Below are positions 11,470 to 22,367 of a stretch of 30,809 bases of DNA, piece by piece. The translations under genes and the position numbers were made by a program. The notes under the pieces are model-generated. The model did no database searches. It had not been told where the DNA came from and saw nothing but the letters and a program-made list of their open reading frames with translations. Numbering within the stretch: the first letter of the stretch is position 1; each line of letters begins with the position of its first letter. The stretch covers positions 1 to 30,809 of IMG/VR virus record IMGVR_UViG_3300020428_000053. The stretch is one strand, 5' to 3'. The stretch is from a virus.

Positions 11470-12285
11470 CTAAGTGTTGTTGTCTAAGAACTCATAGACA
11501 CCATTGTCATCAATGACAACAGCACCCATAGACATCATAGACGTTGCAAGGTGAGATACCCTTTCAGGTATGTAATTTAACTCTGTTGTGACGTCGGCAC
11601 CAATACCTAGTCCAACAGCAGAAGTGTGATAAGCCATATTCTTACCAGCCGTTACTGAAGATGAAGAGAAGAACATAAATCCTAAGAAGTTCTTAGCTGT
11701 CATACCACCAGCAAAAGGTAAGTTAGCTTCACCAACAAAGTCTGCACTAGCAAACTCATTGATTGCATATAGATCAGCAAATCCCTTTGGGTTCATTGCT
11801 ACATATCGACCACCATCTTCTGGAATGTCAGCAACACCGAACTGCTCAAACAATGCAAGAACATCTGCTTTTTCAATAGCAGAACTTGTATCGTGTATTT
11901 GAGTAGAACTAGCTCCAGCATCCATAGCTGTGATTAATATTTCATCAGTCTTTCTACCTAAAGCACCAGCTTCAGACTTAGCGATTGCCTGACGTTCATC
12001 TATATTAGTTTTGATTTCATCCAACTTGTCGATGTATTCGGCCGCATAATGGTCAGCCATTGTTACGTCAACAGTTGTGTGGGTCAATTCCATAGGTGTG
12101 ATTTGACCATTTCTACTTTTAGTAGACGCTGAACCTTTACCAATCTTCTGAAAGCGAACTGTGCTTCCTCTTACATTAGCAACAGTACGAACAGTGTTCC
12201 TTAATTTAGAACCCATACGTTGATATGCTAAGTGTACTTCAGATTCAAACTGTCTAATAAAAGCAGTATCAATAGTATTAGCCAT
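11470..12285 (-). CDS. Major capsid protein
   Basis: A 271-aa protein in the major capsid position, following the scaffold (with the GNAT-like gene between) and preceding the small head protein. Visible features include the N-terminal helix region (FIRQFESEVHLAYQRMGS), the segment RFQKIGKGSAS followed by LTHTTVDVTMADHYAAEYI, and the long helix region DERQAIAKSEAGALGRKTDE. This arrangement is shared by HK97-fold capsid proteins of marine podoviruses with coat proteins of about 270-330 aa. The ATG at 12285 follows AAAGGAG with good spacing. A putative late promoter lies about 156 nt upstream. No protease motif is seen. Confidence 0.85.
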   Translation of the reverse strand: MANTIDTAFIRQFESEVHLAYQRMGSKLRNTVRTVANVRGSTVRFQKIGKGSASTKSRNGQITPMELTHTTVDVTMADHYAAEYIDKLDEIKTNIDERQAIAKSEAGALGRKTDEILITAMDAGASSTQIHDTSSAIEKADVLALFEQFGVADIPEDGGRYVAMNPKGFADLYAINEFASADFVGEANLPFAGGMTAKNFLGFMFFSSSSVTAGKNMAYHTSAVGLGIGADVTTELNYIPERVSHLATSMMSMGAVVIDDNGVYEFLDNNT

Positions 12286-12394
12286 TGATTGTCTCCTTTA
12301 AAAAGTTAAAATTTATCAGTTTGCAGATGATTGTCCAATTTTTAGCTTCATAAAGATTGTCTGTCATAAGGTCTTTCAGCATAGATTGGGTCAT
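12278..12394 (-). CDS. Possible 38-aa ORF between the GNAT-like gene and the capsid gene
   Basis: The ATG at 12394 overlaps the stop of the upstream gene as TAATG, the coupling arrangement used at four other late junctions. The frame runs 38 codons (MTQSMLKDLMTDN...) and stops inside the capsid start as ATGGCTAA. The putative late promoter element B lies 47 nt upstream, similar to the 42-45 nt spacing seen before three other late genes. There is no good Shine-Dalgarno sequence and no recognised homologue. It may be a chance frame in a 108-nt leader of the capsid mRNA. Confidence 0.3.
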   Translation of the reverse strand: MTQSMLKDLMTDNLYEAKNWTIICKLINFNFLKETING

Positions 12395-12906
12395 TACGAA
12401 TTAAGAATTTGCACTTCTAAACCATCTTGACAACGCACAAAACGTAAACACGCATAACTATTTATAATTACTGGATCTTTATGAAAGATAAACCCTAACC
12501 ATTTTAACCAAGATATTGTCTTTGAATGATCAATAGGTACAACATTTTCAAGCACTTCAAAGTCTTGTTGCAGTAATTCTATAAGCTCAACAGATGCTTT
12601 TAAAAAACTAAAATAATTTTTTTCTATGCCTTTTGTTCCAAGTAACCATATAGAAGCAATCTTTTTATTCTCATAGTTCTGCATTGTACCAAACATACAT
12701 ATAGGAATGTCGTCGACAAGAGCCGTAAAAGTTTTACAAGCCTTATCAACTAAAGGAAGATTCAATGCACGATTAGGTGTGACTCCGTGAATCATACACT
12801 CACGGACATCTTGTGGTCTTAGATTATCTTGAAGATATGTCGCATCATCTAAGTTTGATTCTACTATTTCAAGTTTGCCAATAGTAGCTAAATACTTACG
12901 ACCCAT
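12394..12906 (-). CDS. GNAT-like protein, possible gp13-type internal virion protein A
   Basis: A 170-aa protein. The pattern of an early helix (DDATYLQDNLRPQDVRECMI), a beta strand pair (FTALVDDIPICMFGT) and a later W-L-K-W-LGF segment is that of the acetyltransferase-like proteins (DUF2833, T7 gp13 type) found in podovirus structural operons. The segment KTISWLKWLGFIFHKD resembles the final helix/strand of GNAT folds. Whether it is an active acetyltransferase cannot be told from sequence. It overlaps the end of the scaffold gene by 11 nt and precedes the capsid gene. Confidence 0.62.
   Translation of the reverse strand: MGRKYLATIGKLEIVESNLDDATYLQDNLRPQDVRECMIHGVTPNRALNLPLVDKACKTFTALVDDIPICMFGTMQNYENKKIASIWLLGTKGIEKNYFSFLKASVELIELLQQDFEVLENVVPIDHSKTISWLKWLGFIFHKDPVIINSYACLRFVRCQDGLEVQILNS
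12431..12441 (-). promoter_or_regulatory. Putative late promoter element B
   Basis: The minus strand reads TTTGTGCGTTG, identical over 11 nt to the elements at 2828 and 20299. It lies inside the last codons of the GNAT-like gene, about 156 nt before the capsid ATG and 47 nt before a possible 38-aa ORF. This placement would allow separate strong transcription of the capsid gene. No clear -10 box at the same distance as in A and D. Confidence 0.45.
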
Positions 12907-20342: not shown

Positions 20343-20366
20343 GGAGTAACAGTAACAGTACAACGT
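20343..20366 (+). repeat. Repeat GGAGTAACAG...ACAACGT, copy 1
   Basis: The plus strand has GGAGTAACAG, seven nt, then ACAACGT, in the gap just downstream of the small terminase gene. A second copy with a ten-nt middle lies at 22341-22367, also non-coding and in the same orientation. The purpose is unknown; a packaging, replication or transcription signal is possible. Followed by a run of six T and six C on the plus strand. Confidence 0.45.
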
Positions 20367-20385: not shown

Positions 20386-20772
20386 CTAAGTAAGGTCTAT
20401 CTGTACTTTAATCTCACCAGCGTGCAGATGCATATGTTTATCTGGTGCTTTGAATCCAGCTCTATCAAGGATATCTTTACTGGCTTCTAGTTGTACGTAC
20501 TCACTCTTAGCACCACTGGCTAGTTTCACAAGCTTTGCGCTAGCAAGCGTAGCATTAACGCCCAAACTCTCTGTTATCCTTTTCATCATATACTCTTGCA
20601 CGTGAGACAGTCGCAAAGCTTTGCTAGCCGTGACTCTTCCAGACTCACCACTAGCATAGCCAGCTTCTTGACTGGCTTTTGCTATACTACAACCTTCTGC
20701 TACGAGTGTATCAACTAAAAGCATTTGTTTCTTTGTCAAAGGTCGACGACCATTGTCTAAAACTGAACTCAT
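20386..20772 (-). CDS. terS: Terminase small subunit
   Basis: A 128-aa protein of the terminase small subunit family with the N-terminal pattern RPLTKKQMLLVDTLVAEGCS, the helix-turn-helix region CSIAKASQEAGYAS (residues about 28-41), and a later conserved helical part (ASKALRLSHVQEYMMKR). It recognises viral DNA to start packaging and regulates the large subunit. It is the first gene of the leftward block, separated from the large subunit by four genes. Good purine-rich sequence (AGGGGG) precedes the ATG at 20772. Confidence 0.85.
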   Translation of the reverse strand: MSSVLDNGRRPLTKKQMLLVDTLVAEGCSIAKASQEAGYASGESGRVTASKALRLSHVQEYMMKRITESLGVNATLASAKLVKLASGAKSEYVQLEASKDILDRAGFKAPDKHMHLHAGEIKVQIDLT

Positions 20773-20820
20773 AACAACCCCCTAGTCCCCCTTCTATTGC
20801 ATCCATATATGCTTTGTCAA

Positions 20821-20867: not shown

Positions 20868-21458
20868 TGGTTGCTAAGCCTAACCAAAGTTGCGTCATTT
20901 CAAACAGAGCCACCTCTAAGGCAGACTAGGTTTGTGACTCAACCTTTGCATAAATATCGTCTACTTCCATACTTGTTCTAAAAGAACTAGATGACTTTGA
21001 TTCCTCGTACACCAATCTTTACCAACTAGAGGTTCTTAAAGTCTTTACTATCAGTGGTGTTTGACAGAAAGAAGTTCATCTTTCTGACCCTGAAACTTCG
21101 GTAAGCATAGAAATCTGAGGATGACTAACATCTTGTCCACAGCATATCTCACGAAGGAGTTTGACACTAACCTCAGAAATCTGACCAGTCTAACATTCTA
21201 TACTGTCACCATAAGTTTACCAAGCGTAAGACTCTATCTATCAATTCTCTAAGATATAAGTGAAACTTCCACAATGCTAGTTTTTTAGTACTAAAAGACA
21301 TACTAAAACCATAACGACGAATTTTAATTCTGCTAAGTTCTAAAAGATTTCGTGCCATTTCTAGTCACAATGTAGTCTCCTAGAAAAAAGTTCAAGCCAC
21401 GACGCTTTTGCAAGGATCGTGCTGACAACCTCACATAAAAATGACCCCCATACAAGTT
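20868..21458 (-). repeat. Left arm of a long imperfect inverted repeat
   Basis: Read on the minus strand, this stretch aligns along its length with the plus strand from about 21480 to 22115. Matching blocks include the hairpin arm AACTTGTATGGGGGT, the leader with GCAAAAGC(G/A)TCG, the ribosome binding site and start, TATCTTAGAGAAT, TCAAAGTCATCTAGTTCT (18 of 18), the stop region with CACAAACC, AGAGGTGG, TTGAAATG and GCTTA(G/T)CAACCA. Identity is roughly 70 percent by eye, with several short insertions and deletions. Confidence 0.85.
20939..21368 (-). pseudogene. Decayed inverted copy of the 138-aa early gene
   Basis: The minus strand from 21382 reads TAGGAGACTACATTGTGACTA, compared with TAGGAGACTATATTATGACTA at the start of the intact gene at 21625. 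Translation from the GTG at 21368 gives VTRNGTKSFRT and then a stop; the intact protein starts MTRNTTKSKT. Small insertions and deletions disrupt every frame after that, although the nucleotide match continues to the stop-codon region at about 20939 (430 nt against 417 nt). The intrinsic terminator that follows the intact gene is not kept here: the 5' arm AGAGGTGG survives but the 3' arm is replaced. A leftward transcript from the central region would carry this sequence as a long untranslated leader of terS. Confidence 0.8.
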
Positions 21459-21494
21459 TGTCCGTACCACCCATTGCCTAACTTGTATGGGGGT
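21444..21494. repeat. Perfect 15-bp inverted repeat at the axis of the large repeat
   Basis: 21444-21458 (ACCCCCATACAAGTT) and 21480-21494 (AACTTGTATGGGGGT) are exact reverse complements with a 21-nt loop. They are the innermost matched segments of the 1.2-kb inverted repeat. On the minus strand the hairpin is followed by TCATTTTTATG, a weak T-run. It may act as a cruciform, a transcription barrier between the divergent blocks or a replication signal. The function is not determined. Confidence 0.75.
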
Positions 21495-21503
21495 TGATGT
21501 TAT

Positions 21504-21541
21504 CTACGCATTAGATTAATGACTGACGTCATTATGCGTAG
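21504..21541. promoter_or_regulatory. Palindromic element upstream of the first rightward gene
   Basis: CTACGCAT (21504-21511) and ATGCGTAG (21534-21541) pair perfectly, with an inner stem AATGAC/GTCATT and loop TGAC, and one six-nt bulge. It contains the palindrome TGACGTCA. It lies about 90 nt before the 138-aa gene in a segment absent from the decayed copy. It may be an operator or promoter element for early transcription. Confidence 0.5.
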
Positions 21542-21581
21542 TAGCTTATCGTCTATCATTGTTTATGTAAGGATGACATCA

Positions 21582-21597
21582 CGATGCAAAAGCATCG
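21582..21597 (+). other. 5' leader hairpin of the 138-aa gene
   Basis: CGATGC-AAAA-GCATCG is a perfect 6-bp stem with a four-nt loop, ending 15 nt before the ribosome binding site AGGAGA. Hairpins at this place often protect or regulate early phage mRNAs. The corresponding part of the decayed copy keeps GCAAAAGC but only a partial stem. Confidence 0.5.
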
Positions 21598-21624
21598 CAA
21601 CTTAAACTTTTAGGAGACTATATT

Positions 21625-22041
21625 ATGACTAGAAATACCACAAAATCTAAGACCTTAGTAGAATTAAAATTAGCCGTTATTAACTACCATTCTGGAGATT
21701 CACTAACATATCTTAGAGAATCAATAGCTAGAGACGCTTGCTACACTTCTGCTAACAGCATACAATATAAGTCTGATCAAATTTCTGAGAACAGAGTCAA
21801 ACTTGCAGACCTTCGTGAGACATACTCTGGACAAGAAGTCATCCACGTTCAGATGTCTAAGCTAACCTTCGTAATTCAGGCTCAGAAAGCTGAACTTGAA
21901 GAGCTTTCTGACAGACACCAAGCTGATACCAAAGCCTTCAAGAAATTAGTTGGCAAAGATTGGACTCCAAATTCAAAGTCATCTAGTTCTAAGAACAAGT
22001 TAATGGAACTAGACGAGATTGACGCTTTAATTAAAGGTTAA
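21625..22041 (+). CDS. Unknown early protein with inverted decayed duplicate
   Basis: A 138-aa protein, Ser/Lys/Glu-rich and mainly helical, with probable coiled coil around residues 55-115 (VQMSKLTFVIQAQKAELEEL) and a Ser-rich linker (PNSKSSSSKNK) before a final helix (LMELDEIDALI). The ATG follows AGGAGACTATATT. It is the first gene of the rightward block, with a structured leader and its own intrinsic terminator 20 nt after the stop, so it is probably expressed alone, early and strongly. First genes of this type in podoviruses often act against host defence or metabolism, but no family is recognised. A broken copy faces it at 20939-21368. Confidence 0.8.
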   Translation: MTRNTTKSKTLVELKLAVINYHSGDSLTYLRESIARDACYTSANSIQYKSDQISENRVKLADLRETYSGQEVIHVQMSKLTFVIQAQKAELEELSDRHQADTKAFKKLVGKDWTPNSKSSSSKNKLMELDEIDALIKG

Positions 22042-22061
22042 TCCACAAACCAATTCTCCCT

Positions 22062-22092
22062 AAGAGGTGGTTGAAATGCCACCTCTTTTTTT
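22062..22092 (+). terminator. Intrinsic terminator after the 138-aa gene
   Basis: AAGAGGTGG and CCACCTCTT pair perfectly (nine bp) around the loop TTGAAATG, followed directly by a run of seven T. This is a classic rho-independent terminator, 20 nt after the TAA. Confidence 0.9.
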
Positions 22093-22133
22093 ATGCTTAT
22101 CAACCACCGATTGTTTATATATAGGAGTATCAT

Positions 22134-22340: not shown

Positions 22341-22367
22341 GGAGTAACAGCAGTAGCTATACAACGT
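22341..22367 (+). repeat. Repeat GGAGTAACAG...ACAACGT, copy 2
   Basis: GGAGTAACAG, ten nt, then ACAACGT, in the non-coding gap between two early genes, in the same orientation as the copy at 20343-20366. It is followed by CGTCGTCATTATC. The shared outer parts are 10 and 7 nt identical. Confidence 0.45.

Follow-up and report, generated by a model that had tools for sequence, protein, structure and literature searches.

The window analysed here is the whole 30,809-nucleotide stretch of viral DNA (positions 1-30809), which represents a podovirus with T7-like virion genes and lambda/P22-like replication and recombination genes (O-like initiator, RecE-like exonuclease, Erf, and RusA-like resolvase). 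No RNA or DNA polymerase was found among the window proteins searched. An 852-nt gap separates the end of the small terminase gene (20772) from the start of a 138-aa early gene (21625), here called gene R, and contains no minus-strand open reading frame (ORF) of at least 60 aa. Two arms of a long inverted repeat meet at this junction, where the cumulative GC skew also has its minimum, and the coding arm carries the whole of gene R together with its Shine-Dalgarno sequence, start codon, and terminator. The features of the locus are as follows.

20386-20772, minus strand: small terminase gene, the left neighbour.
20815-20820, minus strand: -35 box (TTGACA), immediately beyond the left arm, of the conserved terminase promoter; no other sigma70-type promoter was enriched at the junction.
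20868-21444, minus strand: left arm, a non-coding mirror copy with 71% identity to the right arm and 79-99% identity, with few indels, to the left arms of 12 relatives.
21445-21493, minus strand: apical stem (21445-21458 with 21480-21493) and 21-nt loop (21459-21479), from covariation and alignment.
21504-21541, minus strand: side hairpin of the branched tip, CTACGCAT with ATGCGTAG, from a minus-strand fold of 21400-21640 (z = -7.6).
21556-22106, minus strand: right arm, antisense to the 138-aa gene along its whole span, leader and terminator included; from the arm alignment and the covariation structure.
21612-21616, plus strand: Shine-Dalgarno sequence (AGGAG) of gene R, within the right arm, from the sequence.
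21625-22041, plus strand: gene R, encoding a 138-aa helical early protein with the motif IARDACYTS; relatives in 76 viral contigs.
22062-22093, plus strand: intrinsic terminator of gene R, within the right arm, from sequence analysis.

The reverse complement of 20868-21444 aligned with 21556-22106 over 609 columns, 433 of which were identical (71.1%, gaps counted), with 86 substitutions and 90 gap columns. The pairwise score was 362, far above shuffled sequence (best of 200 shuffles, 32), and blastn between the arms gave E = 7.7e-80. The arms have in common the leader, the Shine-Dalgarno sequence, the start region, the mirrored terminator flank, and a block identical at 18 of 18 positions (20983-21000 and 21973-21990). 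An earlier sequence-only reading had described just such an inverted repeat, with one coding and one non-coding arm and with these shared parts out to the outer flank, and all of them are present. The symmetry extends inward through the apical stem, which encloses the 21-nt loop. The alignments show that the minus strand of the right arm, tip, and left arm is able to form one interrupted helix of approximately 480 base pairs with a branched tip. A diversity-generating retroelement was considered and rejected: no reverse transcriptase was found among the window proteins searched, the repeats are inverted, and the mismatches are not adenine-only.

Twelve IMG/VR contigs carry gene R (protein 73-99% identical) and, at the same place, a left arm that is 79-99% identical. 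As these contigs are independent and bear both arms at the same place, an assembly chimera or read artefact is ruled out. At approximately 20% divergence, the 577-nt left arm had accumulated 114-122 substitutions vs just 6-11 gap columns, and several of its blocks, including most of the loop, were invariant. The mirror copy had been described as decayed, a term that does not suit an arm that is conserved with few indels, co-varies with the coding arm, and has counterparts in 38 clades; the accompanying suspicion that it is unlikely to be dead DNA was borne out by conservation and covariation. A single head-to-head recombination event, also proposed, would leave the conservation unexplained.

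Using the R-family alignment as a query, we found 76 viral loci. Among 67 loci of the gene family tested (R-family viral loci, one contig of a metagenome-assembled genome (MAG), and Pelagibacter phage EXVC031P Hodr), the hairpin over the gene start scored above the best of 60 shuffles of its own sequence in 62. A small-terminase scan added further loci, and overall the hairpin score was at least 50 in 90 of 141. After removal of loci sharing sequence, 38 non-redundant hairpins at this junction, each representing a clade, were left, with arms of 59 to 604 bases. IMG/VR contains over 590 small-terminase relatives, not all of which have a hairpin. Hodr (OQ414635.1, L028) is the closest annotated isolate, with its hairpin region at approximately 11942-12636 and 262 of 284 aligned arm positions identical; it was the sole relative in INPHARED, found via small-terminase DNA and protein similarity, and its gene at the corresponding place is of unrelated sequence. 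The set of bacterial and archaeal genomes gave a single match, L102 (PBGS01000047.1), a contig binned with a Euryarchaeota MAG and bearing the same hairpin; it is probably a phage contig that was wrongly binned. In some clades the terminase promoter is separated from the main hairpin by a second, distinct hairpin of approximately 70-100 bp (for example, left of the hairpin in L146).

The tip of the hairpin is conserved in both sequence and shape. The loop, TGTCCGTACCACCCATTGCCT on the plus strand, was nearly invariant among close relatives, and TGTCCGTACCACCCAT was identical in all ten aligned sequences. In the apical stem (helix 15 of the minus-strand alignment), both sides had changed in 5 of 14 pairs, with 99.3% of cells paired. 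The stem of the side hairpin reads CTGTTCGC with GCGAACAG in the aligned relative L012. Both the loop core and the three-way shape of the tip were seen again in L117, whose adjoining gene is of unrelated sequence, and branched tips are alike beside gene R families of unrelated sequence.

Comparison of the window with L012 identified 81 changed sites in the right arm; the left-arm partner had also changed at 62 of them (16.6 expected), and 45 were paired both before and after. In a ten-sequence minus-strand alignment with a 477-pair structure, 95.4% of cells were paired and 67 pairs had changed on both sides, vs 5-13 pairs in controls in which the partners were slid by 1-3 columns, a comparison that partly favours the structure because it was derived from the window sequence, itself in the alignment. 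A shuffle control, which ignores relatedness, gave an expectation of 50.1 double changes and reached 67 in none of 500 trials. The excess of double changes was found again in other clades. These sequence comparisons show that the two arms evolve together. Transversions were frequent among the double changes (28 of 45 in the comparison of the window with L012), and some double changes were adjacent; template switching between the arms probably helps to keep them alike. Mismatches that persist between co-varying sites indicate that copying between the arms is not the whole explanation.

The mismatches that remain in the helix are strongly strand-biased. Across the 38 non-redundant hairpins, 556 mismatches could be read as G-U wobbles on the minus strand vs 76 on the plus strand, and by clade the lean was to the minus strand in 35, to the plus strand in 1, and tied in 2. 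Non-wobble transversion mismatches leaned the same way but less (299:89), so that a composition effect and a wobble-specific effect are both present. Base composition is insufficient as the sole cause. Fourfold sites of neighbouring genes had only 53-57% G/T on the minus strand vs 78% at the mismatch sites of the window; further, composition-matched shuffles reproduced approximately one-third to two-thirds of the difference in stability between the strands, and the natural sequence exceeded its shuffles in all nine cases tested, clearly in eight. The minus-strand fold was the more stable in every one of the 38 hairpins. A very stable fold was also obtained for the plus strand (-514 kcal/mol). 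Hodr showed no wobble asymmetry (3:3). DNA parameters also favoured the minus strand (-366 vs -293), and since they give the same order of strands, these data fit a folded RNA and a folded single-stranded DNA alike. Judged from these mismatch patterns, folding probably takes place in the strand antisense to gene R.

Furthermore, the helix is interrupted at regular intervals. Mismatches and bulges were spaced more evenly than chance in 11 of 12 hairpins (p ≤ 0.03), relative to a null in which the same number of random events was simulated and then realigned. For example, the longest perfect run in Hodr was at most 10 pairs where about 20 were expected. The even breaks may keep the helix free of long perfect duplex, a constraint that RNase III or sensors of double-strand RNA would impose.

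The hairpin is closely associated with the early gene that it overlaps. In 87 of 88 hairpins, the right arm enclosed both the Shine-Dalgarno sequence and the start codon of the adjoining first early gene, and the proteins of those genes fall into several families of unrelated sequence, all of about 110-180 aa. Protein R itself was without a relative in Pfam, PHROG, or PDB, and no protein relatives were found in INPHARED. Its AlphaFold model has four helices with only weak fold matches, and none to known RNA-binding folds. First early genes beside the hairpin (window 21625-22041, Hodr 12374-12817, and many small-terminase loci) are similar in size and helical make-up and may form one fast-evolving superfamily without known function. 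Among 66 small-terminase loci, 38 had both the hairpin and an R-like gene, 17 had neither, 10 had an R-like gene with a weaker hairpin, and a single truncated locus had the hairpin alone; the R set was gathered from hairpin loci, which makes the 38 partly circular but not the 17. Where the first gene was unrelated, the hairpin was mostly absent. In clades with short arms, synonymous divergence was lower inside the arm than in the remaining gene (e.g., 0 vs 0.24 and 0.14 vs 0.59), and in a partial control with other genes the drop in the first 13 codons was weaker or absent.

On its left side the hairpin abuts the conserved terminase promoter, where the TTGACA box is followed by two G runs. These runs, of 5-8 G each and about one helical turn apart, lie between the box and the small-terminase start, just upstream of the gene, and are strongly conserved (window 20778-20791 and small-terminase loci L113-L192), with GGGGGGGAACACAAGGGGGGG in many relatives; the pair is a candidate packaging or late-transcription signal. 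A search for sigma70-type promoters on both strands round the arms and in the loop returned the terminase promoter alone, and plus-strand enrichment of this type was seen neither left of the hairpin nor in the loop. Near either hairpin end, no terminator or own promoter for a minus-strand transcript was found, and non-canonical signals are possible. The left arm had also been suggested to act as a leader of the late operon. This is unlikely for the main late mRNA because the terminase promoter, on the minus strand, lies downstream of the left arm, between it and the small-terminase gene; of the other roles suggested, a structural or antisense RNA is kept below as our best reading. In addition, an exact GGAGTAACAGnAnnAG element occurs at 20343-20358 and 22341-22356, in the two short intergenic stretches on either side of the hairpin unit (with ≤2 mismatches allowed, 5 matches vs 0.74 expected), and is possibly a regulatory repeat.

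We tentatively read the inverted repeat as a conserved long-hairpin RNA on the minus strand, with a branched tip, that would be antisense to the translation start of gene R and control this gene, and on sequence evidence we rate the chance of this as somewhat below even. From the conserved structure we infer its RNA nature, a promoter, and an action on gene R. The minus strand would be transcribed as RNA, the left arm would serve as the strand that folds and stabilises the antisense RNA, the even interruptions would leave no long perfect duplex for RNase III or other sensors of double-strand RNA, and control of gene R would occur in cis, with the RNA as an antisense over the translation start of the gene. 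More speculatively, if the genome is circular, leftward late transcription going round the circle would enter the element from the early side. Several observations count against the antisense-RNA reading: it is not obvious how an antisense arm could regulate while held in its own helix, a minus-strand promoter or terminator was not found, the wobble ratio in Hodr is even, part of the stability excess is compositional, and the double changes are rich in transversions.

The same architecture might instead serve a plus-strand leader of the T4 gene e/soc type, in which a transcript begun to the left of the hairpin would sequester the ribosome-binding site of gene R in the helix, and a shorter transcript started in the loop would be translated. 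The presence of the Shine-Dalgarno sequence and start codon within the arm in 87 of 88 hairpins and the stable plus-strand fold (-514 kcal/mol) agree with this logic, which T4 uses (PMC3014915), but wobble is tolerated on the minus and not the plus strand (556:76), plus-strand promoters are not enriched left of the hairpin or in the loop, and arms of up to approximately 600 bp go far beyond the need; we consider such a leader unlikely. A low probability likewise attaches to a minus-strand DNA hairpin, folding when single-stranded DNA is exposed in replication, recombination, or packaging, with the arms kept alike by template switching. It would need no promoter, and the block-like, transversion-rich double changes, the GC skew minimum at the junction, the RecE-like exonuclease and Erf annealing protein of the phage, and the preference of DNA parameters for the minus strand are all consistent with it. 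It leaves the enclosed start codon and Shine-Dalgarno sequence of R and the link between hairpin and R gene without obvious reason, however; RNase III avoidance is a better fit to the even breaks, and a conserved loop on a branched tip is RNA-like.

It is about as improbable that a hairpin RNA acts on a third party; it could, for example, serve host RNases or RNA-sensing defence as a decoy or trigger, or be the RNA partner of protein R. The helix is long and interrupted, co-occurrence with the R family is strict, and host cyclases sense a structured phage RNA near terminase genes (cabRNA, PMC10686824); against this, the R model matches no known RNA-binding fold, and any binding is putative. 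Far less probable than any of these is an inverted gene duplication that is now a pseudogene, its similarity kept by quasi-palindrome copying alone and without function. The left arm indeed has no ORF of 60 aa, and template switching can yield co-varying blocks. We nevertheless reject a neutral left arm free of constraint, given the few indels, co-varying pairs, and invariant blocks, the conservation in 38 non-redundant clades, the stable mismatches, the strand-specific wobble, the even breaks, and the link to R; long non-functional palindromes are expected to be deleted.

Returning to the antisense hairpin RNA that we prefer, we see a nearly even chance that the locus exemplifies a new class of phage element, an evenly interrupted hairpin RNA opposite an early gene, with a non-coding mirror arm, that would form one module with the R family across a large marine phage group. 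By architecture, we rate the class of element as categorically new, a rating that does not extend to function. A gene in a conserved hairpin arm must meet the protein code and an antisense fold at once, and neither Rfam nor the open-access literature searched contained an arrangement of this kind. The phage group is abundant in marine data and includes one cultured phage, making the element testable; if it is RNA, it would give a phage a new means of regulating an early gene or of coping with RNA surveillance by the host.

Several known systems share part of this arrangement. Rfam covariance models, including those of GOLLD and ROOL, matched neither the window nor any of 18 other loci at the gathering score and gave nothing significant up to E = 5; like the present element, GOLLD and ROOL are large non-coding phage RNAs, but they are ornate and multi-helical, whereas here a single long helix overlaps a coding gene. 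In the translation-start hairpins of T4 gene e, soc, and I-TevI, inverted upstream sequence pairs with the Shine-Dalgarno sequence and start codon of a phage gene, as it does here (PMC3014915). T4 stems are short and their pairing is selected on the mRNA strand; in our hairpins the wobble-tolerant strand is the antisense (76 G-U on the plus vs 556 on the minus strand), and the arms of approximately 60-600 bp may span the whole gene. The cabRNA of staphylococcal phages, approximately 400 nt long and read by host defence, where it activates a CBASS cyclase, is likewise a structured phage RNA of the terminase region, and originates inside the terS-terL mRNA (PMC10686824). The present element lies upstream of the small-terminase gene and its promoter, outside the terS-terL coding region, is antisense to an early gene, has conserved co-varying arms, and is no relative of cabRNA by any test made.

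Cis-antisense RNAs such as FinP/traJ, CopA/CopT, and type I antitoxins also place an antisense strand with a structured tip over a translation start. They have their own promoter and terminator on the antisense strand, neither of which was found near either end here, where non-canonical signals are possible; further, the present element is far longer, and half of it is a mirror arm that would fold the antisense onto itself. Animal hpRNAs are hairpin RNAs from inverted gene duplicates, and in them, as here, an inverted gene copy makes a long interrupted hairpin related to a gene. The present element differs in belonging to a prokaryotic virus, with no RNA interference, and in that one of its arms is the active gene itself.
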